Assembly: GCA_951640195.1 (NCBI GenBank)
Contig: OX621173.1
Coordinates: 475,780 to 539,779 of the forward strand
From: Porpolomopsis calyptriformis
Taxonomy: Eukaryota; Basidiomycota; Agaricomycetes; Agaricales; Hygrophoraceae
Direction of reading: 5' to 3'
Length of the DNA stretch: 64,000 bases
Part shown: positions 11-50,334 of the stretch, in pieces
Layout of the letters: every line of letters starts with the position of its first letter
Position numbering within the stretch: position 1 is the first letter of the stretch
Made by a program: the position numbers and the translations under genes
The notes under the pieces: model-generated
What the model was told of the DNA's origin: nothing
The model's database searches: none
What the model saw: the letters and a program-made list of their open reading frames with translations, nothing else

Positions 11-1678
11 TTGGCTTTACGATATTTCTCCAAGAATCTTCGCTTATCGAATTGCCAAACTCATTGGTCTGAATATCTGTCCAGATTCGGGTTCAAAATC
101 AAATACGTTCCAGGTAGGAAGAACAAAGCCAATGGCTTATCCAGACGCCCGGATTACTTGCCCAACGACAAAGCCGATGTGGAGAACGAAGTTCTGATAG
201 CATGCAACTGATGGGTAAATTCAATTGTCAAATTGTCGAATTCAAGCCTTCTCTCTAGATTACGCTTCAAAATCCCACTCCCACAGAAGATCCAAGATAA
301 ACTCGAGGATGCCTCACTCACTTGGACCCAAGCTGATGGGCTTGTACGCGATGTTGAAGGTCGAATAGTGGTGCCAGAGGAAGTATCTTTGCACACAGAC
401 ATTATACGACTGTCCCACGCCTACCCCCACGCTGGCCACCCTGGCATTGAGAAGATGAAGGAACTCGTACTTCGTAATTTTATTTGGGATGGTGCCCCAC
501 AAGACATCACCAACTACGTTCGATCCTGTCCAGCTTGTCAACAAAACAAGAACTTCCCCTCGAAGCCGTCAGGACTACTCCAACCCATACCCCCTTCTAC
601 AGAACCATGGAAAGAAATCACTGTCGATCTCATCGTCGAACTCCCCAAGTCACAAGGCTATGATGCTGTGATGGTCATTGTCGATCGCTTCACTAAACGT
701 GCTCACTTCATTCCGACAACATCCAATCTTTCATCAGAAGGCGCTGCGAAACTCTTTCGGAATCACATCTGGAAACATCATGGATGGCCCCAAAAGGTTA
801 TATCCGATCGTGGAGTACAATTTGCGTCCAAATTCACAGAAGCCCTCAATAACTCCTTAGGGATCATCTCCGGTCTCTCCACTGCGTATCATCCTCAAAC
901 AGATGGTCAAACGGAATGTACCAATCAAGAACTCGAAGTTTACTTACGTTTCTATACCAACTTCATGCAGGACGACTGGTCGGAATGGCTCGCTTCTATG
1001 GAATTTGCCTACAACAATTGACAACACTCTGCAACTTCACAATCACCATTCTATATGGAATATGGACGTCATCCCCATCTCCCCACGACTATTCTGGATC
1101 AAAGCAACGTGCCTGCAGCCAATACCTTTCATGAATGCCTCACACGTGCACAGCAAAACGCCGAATGATCTTTACAGAAGACAATGGAATCGATGAAGAA
1201 ATACGCTGATCATAAACGGAAATCTTCACCCTCCTATGAAGAAGGAGATCTGGTCTGGTTGGATACCAAGAATATCAAGACGACACGACCCTCGAAGAAG
1301 CTGGACAATCGACGAACCGGACCATTCAAGGTCTTGAAGAAGATATCGGACCTTGTCTATCTGATCGACATTCCTAAAACATGGAGACTGCACCCAGTCT
1401 TTCACGTTTCACTCCTGAGACCCAACGTCGGAAATGAATTGCTCCACCCTGATGTCATCAACACATCACAACCTCCTCCTGATCTGATCGAAAATAAAGA
1501 AGAATATGAGGTTGAATCCATATTACAACATTCCGGAGCTAAATGACACCAAAAATACTTGGTCAAATGGAAAGGCTATCTAATCAAAGAAGCCACTTGG
1601 GAAGACCGATTGAACATTTTATGACACACCAAGGAAATTGTGAAGACGTACGAAGATTCAATTCAAACAGCAACCTGA
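11..1678 (+). pseudogene. RNase H-integrase-chromodomain part of gypsy pol, five TGA stops
   Basis: One reading frame runs from the RNase H C-terminus (EYLSRFGFKIKYVPGRKNKA) to the chromodomain. The integrase has the HHCC zinc finger (HPGIEKMKELV then CPACQQNKN), the core with TVDLIVELPKS and ISDRGVQFAS (the two Asp residues), and YHPQTDGQTEC where the third acidic residue (Glu) sits. The C-terminal HPVFHVSLLRP motif and the chromodomain QKYLVKWKGY follow. The frame is never shifted, but it is interrupted by TGA at 209, 1019, 1166, 1544 and 1622; a final TGA near 1676 is probably the natural stop. Every premature stop is explained by CGA (Arg) to TGA, a CpG transition. A functional product is not possible. 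Confidence 0.93.
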
Positions 1679-1837
1679 TTCTATTCATTTGTTTGTCATC
1701 ATCCCATCTGCCAAGAATTGACCTCTATTTTTAGAACCACTCCTTATAAACTACAAGACGTCTCCGCTTTCCTTCACGACTCAATAACTTTGTTGCAACA
1801 ACCAAGACTACTCAACCAAAACCGCAACAACTTCATC

Positions 1838-2584
1838 ATGCCCGCTACACGATCCACACGATCCCCCTCCCCTCAAGTCACCATCCAGCATTCCGGACGA
1901 ATTCCCTTGTCTGCTGCCCACTCCCCTACCCCCAGTCCCTCCACTTCTACCTCCTCCACTCAACAATTACATCGACAAGCTCGTGCTCACACTGAAGATT
2001 TCTTCAAAGACTATCCTACCCAAACTCCTCCCCCCGAAGATCCCGCTGTTACCATCTCCCATCTCACGGTCCACAGCAACAGCGTCAGCAACTGGAATCG
2101 CGAACTTCGTCAGGAACACGAAGTATTACAAGCCAAGCTCAAGGCGTCGGAGAAGAGTGCTTTATTTTGGAAGAATCGTTGGGATCAGAGTGAGTTGAAA
2201 GTTTGGGAACTCCAGCGCCAGAAGAGACGGACGTGGGTTGATTGCTACAATGTCACCACCTGCGCCATCATCGCCAAGCTCGTGGAAGAGAGTCATCGAA
2301 GTGAACGACTCACCAGAGAAGACTTCCTTTGGGCACAGCGGGACCTCGCAACAATGGAAACGTTGATCGAATATGGAACATCGGTTGAGTACCCCATAGA
2401 TCTCGACTTGGAGTATCCCGACGACAACAACAATGTTGCGACAGTCCAAGCCCCCTCCCCTGTCGAAGCGACTTCAGAAGTTGAACTCATCACTTCCCCC
2501 TCAGTGGCCGTCAAGGCCCCTGCCACCGAGGAAATCCTGACTCAGGCCTCAGAAGACAAAACGACCAACACCGCCCAAGTTTGA
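1838..2584 (+). CDS. Extra coiled-coil ORF downstream of chromovirus pol
   Basis: A 248-codon open frame between pol and the 3' LTR. I chose the ATG at 1838 (MPATRSTRSPSPQ) over one 120 nt upstream because the ORF at 44776 in the other element also begins MPA. The N-terminal third is Ser/Thr/Pro rich. The middle (about residues 85-160) is charged and heptad-like (NRELRQEHEVLQAKLKASEK, then FWKNRWDQSELKVWELQRQK). The C-terminus is acidic. Function is unknown. Similar ORFs with the hydrophobic W...YWE-type pattern occur at 44776 and 46470, so it looks like a recurrent accessory Gag-like or structural protein. It has no stops although the adjoining pol has five. Confidence 0.6.
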   Translation: MPATRSTRSPSPQVTIQHSGRIPLSAAHSPTPSPSTSTSSTQQLHRQARAHTEDFFKDYPTQTPPPEDPAVTISHLTVHSNSVSNWNRELRQEHEVLQAKLKASEKSALFWKNRWDQSELKVWELQRQKRRTWVDCYNVTTCAIIAKLVEESHRSERLTREDFLWAQRDLATMETLIEYGTSVEYPIDLDLEYPDDNNNVATVQAPSPVEATSEVELITSPSVAVKAPATEEILTQASEDKTTNTAQV

Positions 2585-37879: not shown

Positions 37880-38055
37880 ACTTCAATGAACTCCCTCTGG
37901 AATGCATCTGGGACCATGCCATAGAACTAAAACCTGGAGCAAAGCCAGTTACAAGATAAGCCTACTCCCTAAGCAAGATGGAGATGAAAGAACTTAATGA
38001 ATTCCTCAACAAAAACCTCAAGACTGGTCACATACACCCTTCTAAATTGGAATGG
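37880..38055 (+). pseudogene. Start of the gypsy reverse transcriptase, cut by the nested insertion
   Basis: Contains the LPLECIWDHAIELKPGAKPV-like entry into RT and IHPSKLEW just before the insertion. The frame resumes at 48976 with ASPFFFIDKADSSHYPVQDY, the normal continuation, after the AATGG duplication. Confidence 0.8.
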
Positions 38056-39097
38056 TGTTATGATCCCAAACTGATTTGGTATCAAACTTAACCAAAGATC
38101 ATGCATTCAGCAAGTAGCATCCATAGCTCAAATATCCTTTATCTTATCTTATCTGATCTTATCTTAGATAAGATATCGCTGTCCTTCACACATTATCTTA
38201 TCTCAGATAAGATACACTACTATCTTTACTTATGCTATCTTATCATGGACAATAGCATTCTTCCCATTATTCTCTGAGTCAGAATGACTCATATCCCATT
38301 TCTCTATTGTTCTGTCATCACTCCATTGTTCTCTGAGTCACTATGACTCATATTAATCTTCCCCATTGTTCTCCTCATTGTCTGACTCATAGTGAGTCAC
38401 AATTCAAACTCCTCATTGTTCTTTTGTCCATTGTTCTTATTTCCTATTGTTCTCATTACCCATTGTTCTCAAACATATATAAAGGGCCCCCTTTTCACCA
38501 GTGAGGAGTTTAGTTCACAGTTCAGTTGACTTTTAACCCACTTTTACCCCACTCCCCTCCCCCTAGTCTACTCTTCCCCTTTTCCCTTGAACTCACCCCC
38601 TAGTACTCAGTACCTAGTACTACCCCTTATTGATACTACTTGTCTGTAGTCAATACATCCAATCCAATCTAGTCTATTAAGCTTATACCCTGTGTGATTT
38701 CGCCTAAGCCCTCTTACGTTAAGAACCAACTTAGGAATCACCCCTTGACGTATTTCTGTAAGTTGAAGATAGCCACCGAGGACTATCTTATCTTACTTCA
38801 GCCCCTGCTTATTCATCACATTCTCTAAGTCTCAGTCCTTATTGGAGAGACCTCACTGTGATACATATTCTTCTAAGTCAGCCGTTGACTTCATTCTTGC
38901 TCTCCCAGTCAATACTATCCATTGAGTTTGGATAGCCTGCTCATCTGTACATCCTAGCCAAGGATTACTCAAGCCCTATCAAAGGAGGAAGTGATCATTA
39001 CCCAATCAACTCACATCTCCCCCGAACAACTAGGACCTACTTGATTGACGTATAACTCCAGTAGTCCTAGAAGTGAAGTATTTATATTTCACCTGAT
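38056..39097 (+). repeat. 5' LTR of the chimeric element (1042 bp)
   Basis: TGTTATGATCCCAAACTG...TTCACCTGAT. Same length as the 3' LTR and different by eye only at position 4, a CG/CA site, one A/G in an ATTATTCT motif, and ACGTT/ACATT. The next bases, ATAATTTGGAGCCCACCGCG, resemble the primer-binding area of LTR elements. Confidence 0.93.
38230..38490 (+). promoter_or_regulatory. LTR promoter: ATTGTTCT array, Gcn4/AP-1 sites and TATA box
   Basis: In 260 bp there are seven copies of ATTGTTCT (eight in the 3' LTR), two perfect ATGACTCAT sites (38284-38292, 38343-38351), a facing TGACTCA/TGAGTCA pair (38383-38399) and a TATA box ATATATAAAGGG at about 38477. Just upstream (38140-38240) are palindromic TATCTTATCT...AGATAAGATA words, GATA-factor-like. 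AACAATG, the complement of the array core, is the classical HMG-box recognition core. Binding by host factors is inferred. Confidence 0.6.
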
Positions 39098-39209
39098 ATA
39101 ATTTGGAGCCCACCGCGAGGGGTGATTGTGATTGATTGTAATCTCACTCCCCAACTTATTCAGACCCCACTCATCAACATAACTCCCAACTTAGTATTCA
39201 ACACTTACT

Positions 39210-42200
39210 ATGTCTGGACAGTCTCAAGTCCAATCTCAGTTTACACGCACCCCAGACATGATGCCCCTTCTGGGACAGAAGTCTGCTCCATCTAAGTTCA
39301 GTGGAAGCCATGAACAGATCAAGCGCTTCCTCAGACACTTTAATCAGTTATGTAAAGTTTACAATGTACCTGATGTGGAGAAGGGTGAACACCTCATTGA
39401 CTACTGTTCTAGTAAAGTAGTCCAGTTAATTGAAGCCCTTGAAAGCTATAGGACCAATGATTGGCCCAAGCTGGAAGCTGATCTCAATAGGTACTATGAT
39501 GCTGCCTTAAAGGAAACTCGATACATTGTCAAAGACCTCCTCTCTTTCACTCGTAAGTGGAAGACTAGGCAAATCCATTCATTAACATGTTGGAAGAAGT
39601 ATGAAAGAAGATTCATCACTATTGCAGGATGGCTACAAGCCAAGCAGAGAATCTCAGAAGACGAACAAGCTGCTTATTTCTGGAATGGAATTAACAAGAC
39701 TCTCAGACAGGTGATTGAAGCCAGACTTATTAATGCTTCTGGAACCACCCCTCTGGATGTTACTTCCCCATTCCCTATGAAGAAAGTAATCAAAGTAGCT
39801 GAAGTGTTATTTGAACGTAATCGGTTTGATATCAACCTAGCTGACTCTGACTCAGATATTCCTGGAAGGGATGATGAAACAGAGTCAGACACATCTAGTG
39901 ATAACTCTTCATCATTTGATGAAGAAAGTGAAGTCGAAAGGAGACCTAGAAGGAAGAAGAAGAATAATGGTAAGAAGTCCCATAAGAGCAGATGGGATTC
40001 TGATGATGAAGATCTCAAGAAACCCTTGAAGAAGACCAGTCAGAAGAAAGAAGATCACAAGGGTAAGAAGGCATCTAGCAAGTCTACTACTCCAGTCCAA
40101 GATGAAGTAGAATCTCTTGTCAAAGAGATGGGAAAACTCTCCCTAGATGATTTACGCTATGGACTTGCCTACTATAAAGCCCTCAAACTTGATCCTGATA
40201 TAGCTAGGTGTATCAAACCACCTACCCTTCGAGTATCTTCACCAAGATCTTCTATGCTTCCCTCTTCAAACACATTCCCTATATCCAATACTAGTCCCAG
40301 GAATACTGGAGACACAATCACCTGTTATGGTTGTGGAAGTAAAGGACATGGAATGTCTAGTTGTCCCAAGATTGATGAACTCATTGCTTCAGGCACACTT
40401 ATACGTGATGCAAATAGGAAGCTAGTATTCAAGAATGGTGCTTTTATTCGTCGACTCCCTGAAGAGACCTTTATCCAAGCTGTAGCAAGACTCACTCAAG
40501 ACAAGACTAAGCCCATCCAGACTCATTTCCTTACTCTGCAAAGTGATTGCTCAGATTACTACCTATCAGAACCTGAGTTTGAAAAAGATGATTCAGGTGT
40601 ATATGTAATCCCAGCCACTGAGTATGAGCCAGAAGTCCAGGATGAGGATGTACAAGTTATGGCAGCAGACAGAGTCCCTCACAAGATTACTACATCTAGG
40701 AAGGAAGTATTTGATGGAGTCTATCCCCCTATAAAGTCTAGAACCAAAGGGAAAGAAAGCACAGCTGCTACCCAAGGTTCTCACCCATTCCCAAGCACTA
40801 CACCTAAAGCTGCCCCCTTACGATTCCAAACTCATCTCCCAACTGAGGTACTGAAGCCTCATCACGACAAAGACTTTATTAAGGCACTGCCTACACCTAT
40901 TGATGCCAGAGTTAAACGAATTCCTCCCACAGAAATTAATAAAGATATTGACATGAAGGATATAACTAGAAAATCCAGAGCTAAACAGACTGCACCCCTA
41001 CCCCAAGATACCACAGAATTAGCACCCCAAGTCTCTACTAAATCTCCAGTACGTCAATCAGAGATATCCTCTACAATTGGCGACAACCAGGTAGTTAATC
41101 AGATTCTTGATACATCAGTTACCCTGAAAGTCAGAGAAGTCCTGGGATCATCCAAGGAAATATCTGATAAACTCTCAGAAATGATCAAAAGGAAGAATGT
41201 GAAGACTGCTGTTTTAGCTACTTCCTTTCTCACTAGAGACAGAGAGGAACTGATCAAGCTCCAGGTTGAATGTGATAAGCGCCCTGTATCTGCTATCATT
41301 GACACAGGATCCCAATTGAATGTGGTTAGTAAGGATGCATGGAAATTAATCCTTCAGAGACCTAGGGACCTAACTAAGACGTTAGTTATGAATGATGCTA
41401 ATGGAGGTGTAGGAACCCTTGCTGGATTGGTATCTAATGTCCCATTAACCTGTGGAGGTATTACTACCTATGCCAATCTCTTTATTGGGGAGTCAGTCCC
41501 CTTTGATTTGTTACTTGGACGCCCATGGCTACGTGATAATCTAGTTACCATTGATGAAAGAACAGAGGGAACTTACCTCTTGTTCAAGCACCCAAAGAAT
41601 CCAGAGGCCAAATATGAGATATTTGTAGCCCCTCAGGTTCCCTCCTTAGGGTACCACATTAATCCAAGCCCACTTGTTAGGCCTGAGGTAGCAGTATGTG
41701 CTGCACTTACCAATACGGCCACTGGAAGTAGTTCAAGCCCAGCCGTCGATGGGCCTGCGAGTTCTAAGCTCCGCTCGAACTTACTTCCAAAAGCGTCGGT
41801 ACCGACCATAACCTCGGGACCGACAGAGAACAATAAGAATTCGAGCTCAGACGTGATATATCCTATTATGGGTATTACAAATCCTCCGAAAAACAGACTC
41901 CGAGACGGAGGTTTATTGTTTTTTAGCGCATATCTGACTGAATTAGTTACTAACAATGGGAATTCTATTTTTAAAGACGCCACCATTGTTCCCAATAAGC
42001 ATATAAGTCCAAAATTTATTCCAAAGAGGCAATCGTTACCACTAAAAATGATGCCTCATGCCCAGACTACGTCCCAAAGCGCTCCCTACGTCCATGTGAC
42101 CCCCTTTTTACCGCCCCCCTTTTCCCCCAACATTCTCCCACTCCCAGTGCACGTCGACTGGGGACCCCTCCCTCATGAGGGCCCCGATATGTTCAGTCTG

Positions 42201-44270
42201 ATGACGCGAGCCATCGCTGAGCGGATAGTCCACCCCACGGCTCCCTCCGCTACCTTCATGGTCGTGTCCCCTTACGCCCAATGGTTCCCTCCACAATTGG
42301 ACAAGTGCGGGATCCCGTTTGAACACGGGATCCTCCTCAACGCTACTCTCGCGGCCATCACGTCTGACAATCCTTACGCCCCCCCCTCTGTGAGGGTGGG
42401 GCAACTGTACTTCAAGTTTTACCCCAACGCGTTGGCAGTCGGGGAAGTAGCCCCGGCCGCGCCCCCTCCTTCCCCGGGTGCTGGGGGCTCTCGCGTCCCC
42501 ACCAAGCCATCTCCAGCCTGGAGAAGTGGCCCGGAAGTAATTTGTGAGTACCCGGAAGAAGTAAATCAAATGGAAACTGACGTACCTCCAGTGACGCGGT
42601 GCGTCGACGCTTTCCATCCCCCCACTCGCGACCCGCGAATGGACCCACCTGGGTCCAATTGCTATGTCCCTGCCCCCTCGTCCATCGACCACGACTATGA
42701 GGGCGACGACGCCAACATGGAGATGTCGTCGCCCATCGAGGTAGAGCGTGGGTGGGGCGATTACCCAGTCGACAGTCAGGAGCCGCGCGCGCCCCCGTCA
42801 CCCCCACCCATGGTTTTACTCGCTACGTCTGCGCGACCCCCCCTGCCTGTTCATCACCCTCTCCCGCTCCGACGCCCCCTCAGTGATGCCCAGTTGTCAC
42901 TCGACGCACAGCGGGCCCGGACCTGCGACTCAGTGTCGCCCCCGCCTCCACCGCCGACTTCCCCATTCAACGCGGTCGGCCCAGCCCCCACAACCACAGC
43001 CATCCATGTCCCCGCCCGATACCCCGCTAACGACACCCCGACGTCGTTAGTCCATTCGTATGGGCGCACCTACATGCGCCCCCGCGCTCAGTCCTACCCA
43101 GAGTGGGACCACGGCGCATACGACTGCCCACCAGCCCCCGCACTTCGCTATTCCCCACTCCCCCCCATCGACACATGCGACGAGCGCCCGACCGCTCGTC
43201 GCACCCCCTTGTTCCTCCCGTCACCGCCCACTTCCGTGTCCGATGATGACGGCGTTTACCGCCCGTCGCGCCCTTCCCTCGATTCCCCCCCATATACCCC
43301 GTACTCACCCACTGACGTAATGTACGACAGCAGTGTGTCCCTGCGCGAGCGCGGGGACCCCTTCGTAAATACGTCGTATGATAGATATCACGAGTATGTA
43401 AATGGTGCCGGGCACCATTGGGATGTCCGCACGGAATCAGATGCTTCCTCTGATTCTGATATTTCCTCGGAAGATGATGTATCTTTTGTATACCCCTCCA
43501 ATACATTATCTTCTCTTTACATGTCTGATCTAAGTCACAATCAAGAGACTGATATCTGTCCTCCCCCCCTTATGAAACCTATGATCTTCAGAGACACCCC
43601 CAATACCCTTACTTCCCTTCAGTCAACCCACTATCCAGAGCAGAACCTGCTCAACCAGTTGCAGGCAGAGCCTGTACTCAGCTCAGCAGAGCCCATCTAC
43701 ATCCTGAATATCACAGCCAAGGGGGAAGGCTTGCCTTTACCCACACGCCCCACTATGCAGTCCCTCATTGGGCCTGACCATTTCATTGACAGTGCCAAGG
43801 TCCACCTAGCCTTCTTAGCTGGAATCCGCAAGGCCCTTCATACATGTATTGGGCATACTGCCACTATCCTCAACACCCCTGCCTGGAAGACTTATGTCCA
43901 TACCATGCCAGTCAGTAACCCAGCCCACCATTACTTTCTATACCACAGCCAACTGTTCCCTCATTGGAGGAAAGAAGACTCATGCACCCCATACCAGATG
44001 CCTTGGTGCCCTCATCCTAGTCCATTTGTTTTTCCTGTTGAGCAGGAGAGAGCTGGGTGTAACCCATTGCTCTCAGAAGAGGAAGCAGAGTTTTTTCTGT
44101 ATTCAGCTGCTGTATTTCAAGCAGCAAACAGACTACTTCTTGCTGATGCAATCAATGCAGTTCTTAACATGGAATTTCGTAACCCCTCCCTCATCTCAGA
44201 TCTGTTTAATGAAGGGTACTTTGGTTCTTACTTTAACACCAGAGACCTTCAGGTTTATCCTCAGGATTAA
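39210..44270 (+). CDS. Gag-protease polyprotein with a long proline-rich extension
   Basis: One open frame of 1686 codons. The N-terminal ~210 residues are a gag core (APSKFSGSHEQIKRFLRHFN, RKWKTRQIHSLTCWKKYERR). A Ser/Asp and Lys-rich linker follows, then a CCHC knuckle (CYGCGSKGHGMSSC, about residue 371) and an intact retropepsin (IIDTGSQLNVVSK, about residue 696; LLLGRPWLRDNLVTID). Beyond residue ~830 there is no RT. Instead comes a Pro-rich, CpG-rich region to ~1410 with a folded-looking insert (GIPFEHGILLNATLAAITSD, VRVGQLYFKFYPNALAVGEV). A conserved-looking C-terminus follows (HFIDSAKVHLAFLAGIRKAL, HHYFLYHSQLFPHWRKED, EAEFFLYSAAVFQAANRLLL). The last part may be a capsid or assembly domain typical of agaricomycete elements; its function is unknown. 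No stops, unlike neighbouring elements. Confidence 0.85.
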   Translation: MSGQSQVQSQFTRTPDMMPLLGQKSAPSKFSGSHEQIKRFLRHFNQLCKVYNVPDVEKGEHLIDYCSSKVVQLIEALESYRTNDWPKLEADLNRYYDAALKETRYIVKDLLSFTRKWKTRQIHSLTCWKKYERRFITIAGWLQAKQRISEDEQAAYFWNGINKTLRQVIEARLINASGTTPLDVTSPFPMKKVIKVAEVLFERNRFDINLADSDSDIPGRDDETESDTSSDNSSSFDEESEVERRPRRKKKNNGKKSHKSRWDSDDEDLKKPLKKTSQKKEDHKGKKASSKSTTPVQDEVESLVKEMGKLSLDDLRYGLAYYKALKLDPDIARCIKPPTLRVSSPRSSMLPSSNTFPISNTSPRNTGDTITCYGCGSKGHGMSSCPKIDELIASGTLIRDANRKLVFKNGAFIRRLPEETFIQAVARLTQDKTKPIQTHFLTLQSDCSDYYLSEPEFEKDDSGVYVIPATEYEPEVQDEDVQVMAADRVPHKITTSRKEVFDGVYPPIKSRTKGKESTAATQGSHPFPSTTPKAAPLRFQTHLPTEVLKPHHDKDFIKALPTPIDARVKRIPPTEINKDIDMKDITRKSRAKQTAPLPQDTTELAPQVSTKSPVRQSEISSTIGDNQVVNQILDTSVTLKVREVLGSSKEISDKLSEMIKRKNVKTAVLATSFLTRDREELIKLQVECDKRPVSAIIDTGSQLNVVSKDAWKLILQRPRDLTKTLVMNDANGGVGTLAGLVSNVPLTCGGITTYANLFIGESVPFDLLLGRPWLRDNLVTIDERTEGTYLLFKHPKNPEAKYEIFVAPQVPSLGYHINPSPLVRPEVAVCAALTNTATGSSSSPAVDGPASSKLRSNLLPKASVPTITSGPTENNKNSSSDVIYPIMGITNPPKNRLRDGGLLFFSAYLTELVTNNGNSIFKDATIVPNKHISPKFIPKRQSLPLKMMPHAQTTSQSAPYVHVTPFLPPPFSPNILPLPVHVDWGPLPHEGPDMFSLMTRAIAERIVHPTAPSATFMVVSPYAQWFPPQLDKCGIPFEHGILLNATLAAITSDNPYAPPSVRVGQLYFKFYPNALAVGEVAPAAPPPSPGAGGSRVPTKPSPAWRSGPEVICEYPEEVNQMETDVPPVTRCVDAFHPPTRDPRMDPPGSNCYVPAPSSIDHDYEGDDANMEMSSPIEVERGWGDYPVDSQEPRAPPSPPPMVLLATSARPPLPVHHPLPLRRPLSDAQLSLDAQRARTCDSVSPPPPPPTSPFNAVGPAPTTTAIHVPARYPANDTPTSLVHSYGRTYMRPRAQSYPEWDHGAYDCPPAPALRYSPLPPIDTCDERPTARRTPLFLPSPPTSVSDDDGVYRPSRPSLDSPPYTPYSPTDVMYDSSVSLRERGDPFVNTSYDRYHEYVNGAGHHWDVRTESDASSDSDISSEDDVSFVYPSNTLSSLYMSDLSHNQETDICPPPLMKPMIFRDTPNTLTSLQSTHYPEQNLLNQLQAEPVLSSAEPIYILNITAKGEGLPLPTRPTMQSLIGPDHFIDSAKVHLAFLAGIRKALHTCIGHTATILNTPAWKTYVHTMPVSNPAHHYFLYHSQLFPHWRKEDSCTPYQMPWCPHPSPFVFPVEQERAGCNPLLSEEEAEFFLYSAAVFQAANRLLLADAINAVLNMEFRNPSLISDLFNEGYFGSYFNTRDLQVYPQD

Positions 44271-44284
44271 ACCTACAGCTAACT

Positions 44285-44650
44285 CCCTCTCCCATATGCA
44301 AAATCCACTTACTTTGTCCCCTGCACTAAGATACCCACCTTTATGCTTAGCCCTCCCTATCTCCTGGAAAATCCATGATGCCTTTTATGTTTCACTCCTA
44401 AGACCCACTAATATTAACACTGATCTCCATCCAGAAGAAGTGGATGATAATCTCCACCCACCTCCAAGAGAAAGAAGAATATAAGGTCAAACAAATTCTT
44501 CAGCACCACAGGTTTACTCAACATTATATGTATTTGGTCAAATGGGTCAGCTATCCCATCGAAGAAGCAAGCTGGGAACTGAAGAAGAACCTCCTTCACA
44601 TGAAAGAACAAATTCTAGAATATAAACAATTAATTCAAACAGCAATTTAA
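44285..44650 (+). pseudogene. Captured chromovirus fragment: integrase tail and chromodomain
   Basis: LCLALPISWKIHDAFYVSLL followed by RPTNINTDLHPEEVDD is the C-terminal end of a chromoviral integrase. One frameshift around 44470 leads into EEYKVKQILQHHRF and the chromodomain YLVKWVSYPIEEASWE, ending IQTAI at 44650. The same motif order occurs at 1380-1678. It is out of place after a Gag-protease ORF and has no RT or integrase core in front of it. Confidence 0.82.
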
Positions 44651-44775
44651 TCACTCTTTCATGGTATCAGCTCCCCTCGTTTACATTTTTCGCTTTTATC
44701 ACCCCTTTTCCAACTCCGACTAGTCTTTATAATCGCCACCATCTCCATTCTACTCCTCAATATCAACCATTTGCT

Positions 44776-45357
44776 ATGCCTGCAGAACGTATCCAACACC
44801 ACTCCCAAACTGCTCGCAAGTCCACTGGTGGTCGCCCACCACGAACTTCTCACATGTCCACTGAACGACAGCCCCTTCATTACGCTCCCCCACCACTGGC
44901 TTCCACCTCATCAGCCTACAGTGAAGCCGAGCTTGTCGGACAACTCTGGCAGCATAACCGCCGCGCGCGAAACTGGGCCCTCTCCGTTTGGCCTGAAGAA
45001 ATCAATGCACCACCTATCCCTCCCGAGCAAATCATCGAGTCATTAAAGAAAGATGTTGACTATCACAAGGCCGAGATCGTAAGGTTGAATGAGGAGTTGT
45101 ATAATCAGTGGTCAGAGTTAGACCAAGAGAGAAGAGTGAGCCGACACTGGAGAGAACAAGCCAAATATTGGGAGGCGAAACACAAGGAAGTTGCAAAGGT
45201 ACTTCCCCATCTCAATTCTCCTGCTCCACCCATTTTCCCTGGTCCACTCATTGTCCCTACTGGTTCATCGTCGAACCCCATCACCATCCCCGATGACGAC
45301 TTTCTTTCCCCAGTTGACATTACTTCCCTGTCAACAACTATTCCCAACAAGGACTAA
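44776..45357 (+). CDS. Captured coiled-coil ORF (relative of 1838-2584)
   Basis: A 193-codon open frame starting MPAERIQHHSQTARKS. The middle part (ESLKKDVDYHKAEIVRLNEE, QWSELDQERRVSRHWREQAK, YWEAKHKE) is a coiled coil with conserved Trp residues, as in the ORF at 1838. It is followed by Pro-rich sequence. The downstream GGATAAATTTCCTTTTAGTG, then GTGTATGTCATGG, matches the polypurine tract and LTR start of the first chromovirus, so the captured piece ends at about 45480 inside that LTR. Confidence 0.65.
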   Translation: MPAERIQHHSQTARKSTGGRPPRTSHMSTERQPLHYAPPPLASTSSAYSEAELVGQLWQHNRRARNWALSVWPEEINAPPIPPEQIIESLKKDVDYHKAEIVRLNEELYNQWSELDQERRVSRHWREQAKYWEAKHKEVAKVLPHLNSPAPPIFPGPLIVPTGSSSNPITIPDDDFLSPVDITSLSTTIPNKD

Positions 45358-45482
45358 TCCTAGTCCTTCCCCTCTTCTGCACCTATCAACTCTCTCAAAT
45401 GCCATCTCGAATTTCAGGATAAATTTCCTTTTAGTGTGGGTGTATGTCATGGATGTATTTTTCTTTTTCTTTTTAGTCAGAC

Positions 45483-46322
45483 ATGATTAGTCTCTTATCC
45501 GTTTACCCTTCTACTTTACCAATGTATATACAGAGACTGAATATACCCCAAGTTTGGATCTCCCCATATAACAAGCATGCTAATGGAGTTGTGGAACATG
45601 GTCACTTCACGTTACGAGAGGCTATTGTCAAGTCAAGTGACAAAGATAAATTTGGAAGGATCAGAAACTGGCACAAACAGGTGGAGATAGCAGCCTTTGC
45701 TGACCGAGTTACAGTCAGTAGTGTTACAGGATATTCCCCATATTATCTCCTTCATGGAATGCATCCCTTATTACCCTTTGATCTTGCAGAAGCTACCTTC
45801 ATGGTTGAGGGTTTCCAATCAGGATTATCAACCTCTGATCTCCTTGCCCTGAGGATTAGACAGCTAGAACGACGTCAAGAAGATATTGACAAAGCTGCTG
45901 AAACTCTAAAGAAAGCTCGTTTCAAGTCTAAGCAACAGTTTGAACACCGTTTCAGGAAGCGTCTCATCAGAAGATATTATAGACCAGGAGAACTAGTCCT
46001 TGTCAGAAATAGCCGATTAGAATCTACCTTAGGAAGGCTCAAGACAGAACCAAGGTACCTTGGCCCATATAAGGTAGCCAAGAGAACGACAAGAGGAGCC
46101 TACATCCTCCAGGAACTGGATGGAGCCGAACATGCGGAACGTTATGCTGCATTCCGCTTACTCCCCTACGTCTATCGAGATAGCCCTACCCTATATAGAT
46201 TATCCCATGATGATGAGATTGCTGATGGGCAAACAGCTCCCGAGGACTCCGATCATCGATCAGAACCCAGTGATCTGGACACTGATATTGAAATGGGAAG
46301 TTTAAGTAATGAGACTTCCTAA
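45483..46322 (+). CDS. C-terminal part of an integrase
   Basis: The frame contains ISPYNKHANGVVEHGHFTLR (end of the catalytic core, with the third acidic residue), EIAAFADRVTVSSVTGYSPY, YLLHGMHPLLPFDLAEATF, a long helix (LALRIRQLERRQEDIDKAAE), YYRPGELVLVRNSRLE and YLGPYKVAKRTTRGAYILQE. It ends in an acidic tail. The zinc finger and the two Asp residues of the core are missing, so it cannot integrate DNA alone. It probably is the element's own integrase remnant, left after deletion of everything from RT to the core. The first ~20 codons come from LTR-like sequence and may not be original. Confidence 0.8.
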   Translation: MISLLSVYPSTLPMYIQRLNIPQVWISPYNKHANGVVEHGHFTLREAIVKSSDKDKFGRIRNWHKQVEIAAFADRVTVSSVTGYSPYYLLHGMHPLLPFDLAEATFMVEGFQSGLSTSDLLALRIRQLERRQEDIDKAAETLKKARFKSKQQFEHRFRKRLIRRYYRPGELVLVRNSRLESTLGRLKTEPRYLGPYKVAKRTTRGAYILQELDGAEHAERYAAFRLLPYVYRDSPTLYRLSHDDEIADGQTAPEDSDHRSEPSDLDTDIEMGSLSNETS

Positions 46323-46469
46323 TCAAGACTTAATCGTCGATCAGATCTAGCCACCTGATGTAAACTGCATGCCCCCACACTCGCTTATTACTTTCCTTCA
46401 ATCTAGACAACAACAAGCTACCTCCTGCTGCAAAGTCCCTCCCCTCCACTCGAAATCAAACCGCTCATC

Positions 46470-46991
46470 ATGTCGACACCCTATTCCGCTGAAGCACAAT
46501 GCCAATGGTTCAACTGGGACCAGGCAAACCCGAACAACCAAGCCACGTCTAGCAACCTCCCCCCACCTACGACACACGTACTGCTGCCCCCACCTCTCAC
46601 TGCCTACGATTGCCATAACCCCCACCAACCCCTTTATACCCTCATGCCTGCAATGGATGAGGCACCGGCTAATCCGTCAAAGGACGAAATCATCGCGACC
46701 CTACTTAGGGATCGACATTAGCAAGACGTGTACCTTCGGAAGCTCGAGAGCGAGCTCTTTGAGCTCAATGGCAAACTTGTAGGGCAGGAGCTAGCGCTAC
46801 GTTTAAGGGCAGAAATGATTGAGTATTGGATGGATCAAGCTACATACTGGGAGTCTAGGTATGTAACAGCATATGGGCAAAGCGCGTTCATCCCATCTAT
46901 TCCCCCCCTTCCCCCCAATATCATTATCCCTCCTTCATCTCTCATTGGTGCCAATGGCCCCATGGAGGAAGAACCCTTAGATAGGGAGTAG
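46470..46991 (+). pseudogene. Second coiled-coil ORF, one TAG
   Basis: Starts MSTPYSAEAQCQWFNWDQAN, interrupted by TAG at 46719 after LLRDRH, then continues YLRKLESELFELNGKLVGQE and YWMDQATYWESRYVTA to a stop at 46989. Same position (after integrase) and same YW...YWESRY pattern as 44776-45357. The stop fits CAG to TAG. Confidence 0.6.
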
Positions 46992-47293
46992 TATTTGTTC
47001 CTCATACACGCGCCGCCAATTCTTTGTTTTATTTTTGTATAGTCCTTTTTACTCTTTTTACCACAATGTCACAGAAAGAATCTCTTATTAGGAGTAATCC
47101 CTGTAAATAGGAGAGACATTGGGTAAATAATTAAATATGTAAACCCTCTACAAGCGACAGAATCGTTAAAGGATTGACTAAGATTTCAGCTCAGGCTAGT
47201 CACGTGCCTATAAACCGGGTTCAGTTCACAAGCCACGATATCGCACTCACCGCTATCCAACACCGCCCTCAGCCTTTACTCTTTTTTATTACA

Positions 47294-47854
47294 ATGCAGT
47301 CATCCACTTCCCTCACTTCTATCCCCGAATCTAACTATGAGGACACCGCCAACTCATCCACACGCACTCTCCTTCGCGAATCTCGTCTTTTCCGTGCCTC
47401 GGTCAAAGTCGAACAGCCACCCCCCATATATGTCTCTGGGCCAAGAACTGGCCTAATTCTTCCAGACCACTCATATCCCCCACCCCAAGCTACCTCCACC
47501 CCCACTGTACTCGCTACCGCTCAACGACTACAAAGCGGTTTTCAGTCCCTCAACTGGGAGGGGTTTGTTTTCCGTCTCAGCCGCATTCAAGGTGGTCCTA
47601 TTCAACTGGGATCCCTAGTTCAATTCCGCTACCCAAGCAACCAAGTCCAAAGACAAGGACGAGCAATAATTACTAGCGTCTGGATCGTCGCAAAATCGTA
47701 TTGGGTGTTGGAGGCACGTTTGGAGCGAGAAGACGTTGATATTTTGCTTGTGGTGGATCGGAACGATGCTAGGATGGAAAAGAAGGAACCTTGGAATGGA
47801 TGGTTGGGAAGGTTCTTCCCTTGCTGTACCGAATATGAGACCTCGTCTGTATAA
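47294..47854 (+). CDS. Unknown ORF before the 3' LTR
   Basis: About 186 codons from MQSSTSLTSIPESNYEDT. Pro-rich N-terminus, then a compact region (LNWEGFVFRLSRIQGGPIQL, IITSVWIVAKSYWVLEARLE, VDILLVVDRNDARM) and a Cys/Trp end (WNGWLGRFFPCCTEYE). I do not recognise it. An upstream ATG at 47174 is in frame, but the 47294 ATG follows a TTTATTACA context and fits better. It is open and sits 77 nt before the LTR. Confidence 0.55.
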   Translation: MQSSTSLTSIPESNYEDTANSSTRTLLRESRLFRASVKVEQPPPIYVSGPRTGLILPDHSYPPPQATSTPTVLATAQRLQSGFQSLNWEGFVFRLSRIQGGPIQLGSLVQFRYPSNQVQRQGRAIITSVWIVAKSYWVLEARLEREDVDILLVVDRNDARMEKKEPWNGWLGRFFPCCTEYETSSV

Positions 47855-47930
47855 AAGATTACTAGGTCGATAGACATTGTATATACAAGAATCAACTGAG
47901 GGCAGTTGTAATTTCTTTGTCCCCTGCAGA

Positions 47931-48972
47931 TGTCATGATCCCAAACTGATTTGGTATCAAACTTAACCAAAGATCATGCATTCAGCAAGTAGCATCCATA
48001 GCTCAAATATCCTTTATCTTATCTTATCTGATCTTATCTTAGATAAGATATCACTGTCCTTCACACATTATCTTATCTCAGATAAGATACACTACTATCT
48101 TTACTTATGCTATCTTATCATGGACAATAGCATTCTTCCCATTGTTCTCTGAGTCAGAATGACTCATATCCCATTTCTCTATTGTTCTGTCATCACTCCA
48201 TTGTTCTCTGAGTCACTATGACTCATATTAATCTTCCCCATTGTTCTCCTCATTGTCTGACTCATAGTGAGTCACAATTCAAACTCCTCATTGTTCTTTT
48301 GTCCATTGTTCTTATTTCCTATTGTTCTCATTACCCATTGTTCTCAAACATATATAAAGGGCCCCCTTTTCACCAGTGAGGAGTTTAGTTCACAGTTCAG
48401 TTGACTTTTAACCCACTTTTACCCCACTCCCCTCCCCCTAGTCTACTCTTCCCCTTTTCCCTTGAACTCACCCCCTAGTACTCAGTACCTAGTACTACCC
48501 CTTATTGATACTACTTGTCTGTAGTCAATACATCCAATCCAATCTAGTCTATTAAGCTTATACCCTGTGTGATTTCGCCTAAGCCCTCTTACATTAAGAA
48601 CCAACTTAGGAATCACCCCTTGACGTATTTCTGTAAGTTGAAGATAGCCACCGAGGACTATCTTATCTTACTTCAGCCCCTGCTTATTCATCACATTCTC
48701 TAAGTCTCAGTCCTTATTGGAGAGACCTCACTGTGATACATATTCTTCTAAGTCAGCCGTTGACTTCATTCTTGCTCTCCCAGTCAATACTATCCATTGA
48801 GTTTGGATAGCCTGCTCATCTGTACATCCTAGCCAAGGATTACTCAAGCCCTATCAAAGGAGGAAGTGATCATTACCCAATCAACTCACATCTCCCCCGA
48901 ACAACTAGGACCTACTTGATTGACGTATAACTCCAGTAGTCCTAGAAGTGAAGTATTTATATTTCACCTGAT
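47931..48972 (+). repeat. 3' LTR of the chimeric element (1042 bp)
   Basis: TGTCATGATCCC...TTCACCTGAT, followed by AATGG. Nearly identical to 38056-39097. Confidence 0.93.
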
Positions 48973-48975
48973 AAT

Positions 48976-50334
48976 GGGCATCCCCCTTCTTTTTCATAGA
49001 TAAAGCTGACTCCTCCCACTACCCAGTCCAAGACTACCATGCCTTGAACACCTTAACAATCCCAAATAAATATCCACTCCCACTCATCTCTGATATAATC
49101 AAAGGCCTACAAGGTGCACAATTCTTCATGAAGATGGATATCCAATAGGGATTCAACAATATACAAATCAAACCCCCCAACTGCCACAAAGCTGTGTTTA
49201 TTACCCCCCAAGGGCTCTTCGAGCCCACAGTTATGTTCTTTGGGCTGATCAACTCCCCAGCAACCTTCCAGACAATGATGAACACCATCCTCAAGCCTCT
49301 AATTGACCAAGGAGTTGCCCAGTCTACATGGACAACATACTCATTTACACCCAAACCCATGAAGACAATATTATAGCCACACAAGAGACCTTACAGATAT
49401 TCTAGGAACATAAACTGTACCTCAAAGCAGAAAAATGCAACTTCTTCAAGAAGGAAATCGCTTACCTTGGTGTGATAATCTTAGGATTGGGAGTCCACAT
49501 AGACCCAACAAAAGTCTCTACTATCCTAGACTGGCCCACCCCAACATCAAAAACCCATGTCCAATGCTTCCTTGGCATCTGCAACTTCTATAGGAAGTTT
49601 ATTAAAGACTTTGCAAAATAGCTTGCCCCCTCCATAACCTCACCAAGAAGTGTGATGAATGGGCATGGAACCCAAGAGCCAACAATGCCTTCTGATCTCT
49701 CAAGCAGTCACTAATAACAACCCCAATCCTATGGTACCACTTAGACACTGGCCTATACTGAGTCAAAGCTAACGCTTCTGACTTTGCAACTGGAGCTGTA
49801 CTCTCCCAACTCCATGATGAAACACAGCACCCTGTAGCCTACCACTCCAAGAGCCTTGACCAAGCAGAATGAAACTATGAGATTCACAATAAAGAATTAC
49901 TAGCCATCATCCAAGCACTCACAGAGTGGTGCCACCTACTCACTGGCATGCACCACAAGTTTGATATCTAGACTAACCACTGCAACCTAGAGTACTTCAT
50001 GTCTGCCCAATGCCTAAACTGCTGACAGGCCCAGTGGTTACTATTCCTTGCTAACTTCAACTTTACTCTAACACACAAACCCAGAAAGACCATGACAGTT
50101 GCTGACCCCCTCTCAAGATACAAGGACTACAACAAGGGAGTAACCTCAGACAACACCAATGTCATAATCCTAAAGCCAGAAAACATCTGCTGGACAGAAG
50201 TCCAAACCTACTCTGACAGTGATGAGATACTTGAGCGAATCAAAAACCAAAAGGACCACCACAATAACAAGACCAAATCCCTACTCATTGAAGCTCAAAA
50301 TGCAAATGGAAATGACAAAGAGGGAAATAAATAG
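48976..50334 (+). pseudogene. Reverse transcriptase and RNase H of the short-LTR gypsy element
   Basis: Continues the frame cut at 38055. RT motifs: HALNTLTIPNKYPLPLISDI, FFMKMDIQ, FEPTVMFFGLINSPATFQTM and the catalytic loop VYMDNILIY near 49325-49350, where YxDD is changed to YMDN. RNase H: LYWVKANASDFATGAVLSQL, YEIHNKELLAIIQALTEW, FTLTHKPRKTMTVADPLSRY. Stops are TAG after MDIQ (TGG to TAG), several further TAG/TGA codons and a frame change near 49320. Clearly dead. Confidence 0.88.

Follow-up and report, generated by a model that had tools for sequence, protein, structure and literature searches.

Results

An LTR element without the core of pol

The DNA analysed here (the window, 64,000 nucleotides) spans positions 475780-539779 of contig C11 in a fungal assembly of 33.5 Mb and 17 contigs. 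At window positions 38056-48973 lies a retrotransposon bounded by long terminal repeats (LTRs). We think it likely that this is a chimeric element of the Ty3/Gypsy type, semi-autonomous and from an agaricomycete-like fungus, in which the reverse transcriptase (RT) region has been replaced by the 3' end of a second retrotransposon. Copies are named after their contigs, the window copy being the one on C11. Those with the same replacement are called short and those with the pol region in its place complete. The features of the window copy are collected in Table 1.

The two LTRs of the window copy differ at four positions, in agreement with the original prediction of about four, but they are 1043 bp rather than 1042 bp long. 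Two of the four differences are CG/CA. An A follows or ends the LTR (…CTGATA) in every copy with its 3' end read, and this A is absent on the left side at seven insertions (complete C9 and C1, counted as one, complete C7 and C3, and short C5, C4, C1 and C9). The target-site duplication of the window copy is therefore the 4-bp ATGG beside a coincidental A, and not the predicted 5-bp AATGG. Fifteen of the 17 bases of the putative primer-binding site are found at the matching place in six of the seven short copies, the exception being C12, and in all six complete copies read; these 15 bases occur at 62 places (26 forward, 36 reverse).

ORF1, the first open reading frame (ORF), is open from stop to stop over 39195-44270 (1691 amino acids), which bears out the long open Gag-protease frame of the original prediction. 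DUF4100 passes its Pfam cut-off in ORF1 and the protease models fall below theirs. Pol was searched for by tblastn with four pieces of the complete-form protein (residues 480-740, 740-880, 1000-1080 and 1080-1162) that span RT, RNase H and the zinc finger and core of the integrase. None of the four had a match inside the window element, where complete-form pol matched only in its N-terminal extension (43708-44346) and the C-terminal part of its integrase (45531-46316). The prediction that RT and RNase H are absent and that only the end of an integrase remains thus agrees with this search.

Table 1 Features of the element in the window (window coordinates).
Feature	Position	Strand	Remarks
Target-site duplication, left copy	38052..38055	.	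ATGG
5' LTR	38056..39098	+	1043 bp, TGTYAT...CTGATA; from repeat pair and end analysis
Putative primer-binding site	39104..39120	+	Begins TGG, 5 nt past LTR
ORF1, Gag-protease and long tail	39210..44270	+	As long as in three complete copies
Aspartic protease region of ORF1	41262..41534	+	gag-asp_proteas E=1.2e-4, below curated cut-off
Pol N-terminal extension	43708..44353	+	Other frame, overlaps end of ORF1; 96.7% to complete C13 pol, matched to 44346
Captured insert from second chromovirus family	44354..45530	+	1177 bp; 77-80% to at least 34 other places
Captured integrase C-terminal tail	44347..44466	+	tblastn with donor-family pol
Captured chromodomain	44462..44644	+	tblastn; frame differs from that of integrase tail
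Captured third ORF of donor family	44776..45357	+	193 amino acids from ATG; coiled-coil by eye
Donor LTR start	45445..45530	+	First 86 bp of 369-bp LTR, up to TATATA stretch
Native integrase C-terminal part	45531..46322	+	98% to complete C13 pol, matched to 46316
Native third ORF	46407..46721	+	Shortened by a stop in the window copy
Native fourth ORF	47135..47854	+	
3' LTR	47931..48973	+	4 differences from 5' LTR
Target-site duplication, right copy	48974..48977	.	ATGG

The RT region is replaced by the 3' end of a chromovirus

The insert stands in place of about 2.84 kb that code for RT, RNase H and integrase in the complete form, with junctions at 44353/54 and 45530/31. The predicted content of the captured chromovirus 3' end (chromodomain, coiled-coil ORF and beginning of an LTR) was found, while its limits move from 44270-45490 to 44354-45530. 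Both junctions fall inside donor sequence and neither lies at the ends of the donor LTRs. At the right junction the recipient reads AGAGACTGA; all nine bases are present in three of the five donor copies shown, and the first seven in the other two.

The sole donor element scanned, which lies in the C2 copy, matches Chromo at E=7.4e-13, and its RT and integrase core are also above the Pfam cut-offs. By its chromodomain, the donor family is thus classed as a chromovirus. The captured ORF is open in the window, C5, C4, C1 and C9 copies and has one stop in C12. Its Pfam matches were all sub-threshold (E=0.023 for SlyX in the window, E=0.06 for ODAD1_CC in the donor family), and none of 55 candidates in the protein search reached E≤0.001. 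The captured ORF is distantly related (30-33%) to the part of the native third ORF at 46683-46862. It can be read as a second, distant copy of a protein that the element already has. An ORF of coiled-coil appearance between pol and the 3' LTR is seen in the native element, in the donor family and possibly in an element at window 212-2584. The last has an integrase-like frame at 212-1021 (24-30% matches to complete-form pol, at 410-1366) and next to it, at 1679-2584, an ORF judged by eye to be coiled-coil.

The donor-family element in the short C2 copy (L018:2542-9222) has identical 369-bp LTRs and no target duplication, and positions 41501-44924 are lost beside it. These two features point to a rearrangement rather than a simple insertion.

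Short copies form a lineage with a complete partner

When the assembly was probed with the insert and the best 40 of 157 candidates were scored, the insert was found in the window, C5, C4, C1 and C9 copies (99-100%) and in C12 (90%), and half of it in C2. There are thus at least seven short copies; the other 34 of the 41 rows belong to the donor family (77-80%). The right junction is the same in all seven copies and the left in all six in which it can be read, save that C12 lacks one base at the left and differs by one at the right. The original prediction had proposed a search for further copies with the same junctions, and with the window copy there are seven. Six of them have clean target duplications, all different (ATGG in the window copy, CCTT in C5, TCGC in C4, GCGT in C1, GAGG in C2 and CCTC in C9), and that of C12 is imperfect (AATG/CATG). 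The LTRs of five of the seven carry no substitution over the bases compared, the comparison being partial for C1 and C2 (C5 0/1032, C4 0/1042, C1 0/910, C2 0/997 and C9 0/1009, the last with 32 gap positions), and the counts for the window copy and C12 are 4/1042 and 15/1055, respectively. ORF1 is open over 1691 amino acids in the window, C5, C4 and C1 copies. It has one stop in the part read of C9, lacks 1743 bp in C9 and C12, and is interrupted in C2. The short C4 copy inserted into ORF1 of a further family member, and the pol and 3' region of that member resume beyond it.

The same replacement in seven copies, the clean and different target duplications and the unsubstituted LTRs argue that a chimeric, semi-autonomous lineage has transposed, as the original prediction of a non-autonomous chimeric lineage suggested. 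Those hallmarks of elements with Gag-protease only that can be read from sequence are present: LTRs with a target duplication, an open Gag-protease frame, the absence of RT, RNase H and integrase core, and multiple copies with an autonomous-looking partner that has the same LTRs. The enzymes for transposition were presumably supplied in trans, as RT is absent. Private changes in older copies are mostly CpG transitions, C-to-T or G-to-A (19/23 in the window copy and 24/30, 35/46 and 42/52 in complete C10, C9 and C1), with the short C9 copy as the exception (24/56). CpG transitions are expected in methylated repeats, and the LTR differences may therefore overstate age.

An LTR probe, for which the best 40 of 110 candidates were scored so that counts are lower bounds, gave LTR pairs spaced by about 9.87 kb (at least four pairs), 11.5 kb (at least six), 13.1 kb (C2, single) and 8.0 kb (C12, single). 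The 11.5-kb spacing is that of the complete form, which is 97.6-98.9% identical to the window copy left of 44353 and right of 45531 and has LTRs that are 94.8-99.3% alike. In the complete form, about 2.84 kb between these flanks encode RT, RNase H and a zinc finger of the integrase, all above the Pfam cut-offs, and the integrase core was assigned by position. An autonomous-looking partner of the kind that the original prediction proposed to look for, with the same LTRs and an RT, is therefore present. No near-identical protein was found, and the named protein relatives are from Agaricomycetes (Pleurotus, Hypsizygus, Trametes, Cerrena and Mycena), hence the designation as agaricomycete-like. 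The complete C13 pol has an SH3_Tf2-1 match below the cut-off and no Chromo match at E≤0.1, and the recipient is not classed as a chromovirus. A probe with the RT region matched 13 places essentially end to end (95-100%) and three in fragments (89-99%); 24 of its 43 rows are short matches (67-75%) to other families. ORF1 (1691 amino acids) and pol (1425 amino acids) are both open in three of the six complete copies read (C13, C7 and C3), and the other three have stops in both. Complete C9 and C1, near C9:243.7-256.2 kb and C1:3853.1-3865.7 kb, have the same target duplication and matching flanks, identical over 492/492 bases at one end and 99% alike over 124 at the other (L033, L034, L035, L036), and hence represent one duplicated insertion.

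Backbones of short copies are mosaics of complete-form sequence

The complete copies fall into type A (C10, C9 and C1) and type B (C13, C7 and C3), separated by 191 diagnostic sites fixed within each set, 131 of them interior. At the interior sites the window copy is type A in 127/131 and short C9 in 82 of 91 readable, compared with 1/84 in C2, which has the short-copy base at 45598 and is B-type from 45874. C5 is B-type save for an A tract around the insert at 43406-46317 (A at 17/19 sites), as are C4 and C1 save for one at 43917-46172 (A at 6/7 sites); the B sites within these tracts (2/19 and 1/7) are also B in the window copy. Among 20000 random shuffles of the interior states, the observed scan was reached in none for C5, none for C4 and two for C1. 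An A-type LTR tract of C4 is found in both of its LTRs, which is expected if recombination preceded or accompanied reverse transcription. The C4 tract in both LTRs and the interior tract that C4 shares with C1 indicate that mosaic recombinants existed before insertion.

Outside the insert, only 14 sites separate the window, C5, C4 and C1 copies from all six complete copies, and these fall within 44226-44351 and 45555-45598. The shared markers of these four copies thus lie no farther from the insert than about 130 bp on its left and 70 bp on its right, and the insert of the window copy has 2 differences in 1177 from that of each of the other three. It follows that the insert is nearly constant while the backbone changes. 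Judged by the diagnostic sites, two distinct sets of crossovers flank this cassette, and in the young copies the backbone consists of complete-form sequence of type A or type B. The original prediction that the lineage keeps its own Gag and protease does not hold for the window, C5, C4 and C1 copies, in which this region would instead have been re-acquired from the partner by recombination near the insert.

The C9 and C12 copies lack the 1743 bp of window 42169-43911, an in-frame deletion across whose scar the frame is open in C12 and has one stop in C9. Over 43929-44192 they share eight bases that are absent from the window branch, five of which occur in no complete copy compared and three also in older complete copies. 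Beginning at 44304, the bases of C9 and C12 are mostly present in the window branch as well (44327 is not common to C12). The simplest account puts the chimera with the deletion first; the window branch then apparently recovered this stretch of ORF1 from a complete element, through a crossover somewhere between 44280 and 44304. The opposite order is conceivable, but both the LTRs and the insert mark C12, by their divergence, as the oldest short copy.

The insert of C12 (L024:1501-2677) differs from that of the window copy by 5.6% in the left quarter with the chromodomain, 5.8% in the 5' untranslated region (UTR) and 12.7% in the ORF; the difference is 13-15% across the ORF and 3' UTR and 10% in the LTR piece. 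This unevenness suggests exchange, either among the short branches or with donor-family elements. For the captured ORF, Ka/Ks (the ratio of non-synonymous to synonymous rates) is 0.23 for the window copy against C12, which at first sight points to a function in the chimera. This reading as selection was dropped, as the ORF is more diverged than other parts of the insert. Its 12.7%, against 5.6% and 5.8%, may partly predate the capture or reflect later donor exchange. The captured ORFs of the window copy and short C9 differ by 4 synonymous and 5 non-synonymous changes, numbers too small for a verdict on selection.

Native 3' ORFs and flanking sequence

The two further ORFs predicted at 46407-47854 are present, but they are native: they lie in a region common to the complete copies and are not part of the capture. 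The third is a 194-amino-acid frame in the short C5, C4, C1 and C9 copies and in five of the six complete copies read. The fourth had no Pfam match at E≤0.1; its Ka/Ks between A and B types is 0.13-0.15, and it shows 1 synonymous and 6 non-synonymous changes between the window copy and complete C10. Just outside the 3' LTR are RT-like matches at 48975-49295 and 49448-49615 (31-34% to complete-form pol). From this flank (48975-49615), the window element appears to have inserted into another retroelement.

Discussion

The observations are, in our view, probably best explained as a whole by a semi-autonomous chimera that is mobilised in trans and re-seated by template switching. Since its LTRs, leader and putative primer-binding site are normal, the anatomy suggests that transcription and packaging of the short RNA should proceed as for the complete one. 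Either form could provide Gag-protease, and pol, provided by the complete form, would carry out reverse transcription and integration of the short RNA in trans. In mixed particles, template switches would then re-seat the RT-less cassette on those complete backbones that are current. A double template switch probably underlies the founding capture as well. A founding switch between co-packaged RNAs, as originally proposed, is plausible: it fits both the two-sided mosaics and the microhomology of 7 to 9 nt at the right junction. A more tentative proposal, to which we give somewhat less than even chances, is that the heritable unit is an RT-replacement cassette of about 1.3 kb that re-seats on active complete backbones, even regaining 1743 bp of ORF1, and that the captured ORF may be kept because it is helpful.

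The founding chimera may alternatively have been made in DNA, if a second chromovirus inserted in the pol of a complete copy and was reduced to its 3' end, by two deletions or by aberrant break repair, before the product transposed. The junction microhomology is also compatible with end-joining, nested insertions do occur, as with the short C4 copy in the ORF1 of another copy, and the C2 copy with its donor element is a comparable rearrangement. Nevertheless, this route needs an insertion and two deletions as opposed to one event with two jumps, and both junctions are inside the donor with none at its LTR ends; we regard it as unlikely, though a serious contender. Less likely still is that the A/B mosaics reflect gene conversion between integrated copies instead of recombination in mixed particles. 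Copies about 98% identical are good substrates for conversion, and the exchange molecule is not visible by our method. However, C4 and C1 share their interior tract and sit at two sites, each with its own target duplication, so that their mosaic predates at least one of the two insertions; they have no LTR substitutions, and the C4 LTR tract is in both LTRs. That RT is missing merely through misjoined reads of two elements is very improbable. Repeats about 98% identical are readily misassembled, but the same junctions recur at seven places, one insert is 10% diverged and six clean duplications are different.

Several observations weigh against the trans-mobilised, template-switching chimera that we favor. 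The supply of enzymes in trans is deduced from the absence of RT. The complete C13 pol gave no match to rve, the integrase core, at E≤0.1, and rve is present in many of the protein relatives listed. No tRNA was matched to the putative primer-binding site, ARAGORN being negative at two of the 62 places, one of them in the C1 short copy. Stray A-type interior sites lie off the tracts (three in C5, one in C4 and three in C1), and gene conversion between integrated copies could be behind some tracts. Type A rests on two independent insertions, because complete C9 and C1 are one. Finally, the uneven divergence of the insert shows further exchange whose order is not readable.

Partner-mobilised elements with Gag-protease are already known from wheat. 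RLG_Sabrina_SA, termed semi-autonomous, and RLG_WHAM, with RLG_Wilma as likely partner, are in the part of the source consulted likewise multi-copy Gypsy elements with a Gag-protease ORF and no RT or integrase that co-evolve with an autonomous element (PMC9744471). As described there they are whole families, whereas the two forms here are 97.6-98.9% alike outside the replaced stretch, this stretch derives from a different LTR family and there is backbone exchange with the partner. In einkorn wheat, RLG_Quinta similarly contributes Gag without being autonomous, is mobilised by autonomous RLG_Cereba and shares diagnostic motifs with it; unlike the present element, Quinta is centromeric and 28-35 million years old, and its abstract mentions no foreign 3' end (PMC11302176).

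Grass centromeric retrotransposons (CR elements) offer a parallel for the mosaics. According to the portion of the report consulted, recombinants of A and B parents are prolific, RT and integrase are lacking or truncated in most CR2-Sb-B members, and template switching is weighed against illegitimate recombination; in contrast to our case, recombination is among CR subfamilies and not by another family's 3' end replacing RT (PMC4079200). Members of the Arabidopsis family Onsen also recombine pairwise during bursts of transposition, which is likened there to recombinant retroviruses, and extrachromosomal DNA carries recombinant LTRs; in contrast to our case, this was observed experimentally and among members of one family, with no RT-less cassette in the abstract (PMC5668417). 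A non-autonomous retrotransposon of a barley mildew fungus is, by its abstract, studied for an encoded peptide (PMC6022598).

TR-GAG elements are plant elements with LTRs and gag but without pol; the element described here differs in having a protease, an integrase tail and a foreign segment. In titles and the beginnings of abstracts, mostly of papers outside subscription journals and thus weak evidence of absence, we found no element from a fungus in which a foreign 3' end stands in for RT and backbones are exchanged. Within that scope, the pattern of a cassette on exchanged backbones appears to be new.

These copies provide a small, sequenced system in which a retrotransposon parasite can be followed through recombinations with its helper. 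They make it testable whether semi-autonomous elements persist through their own coding capacity or through borrowed, fresh backbones, and they bear on whether LTR-based dating and trees of semi-autonomous elements mean what they seem to.

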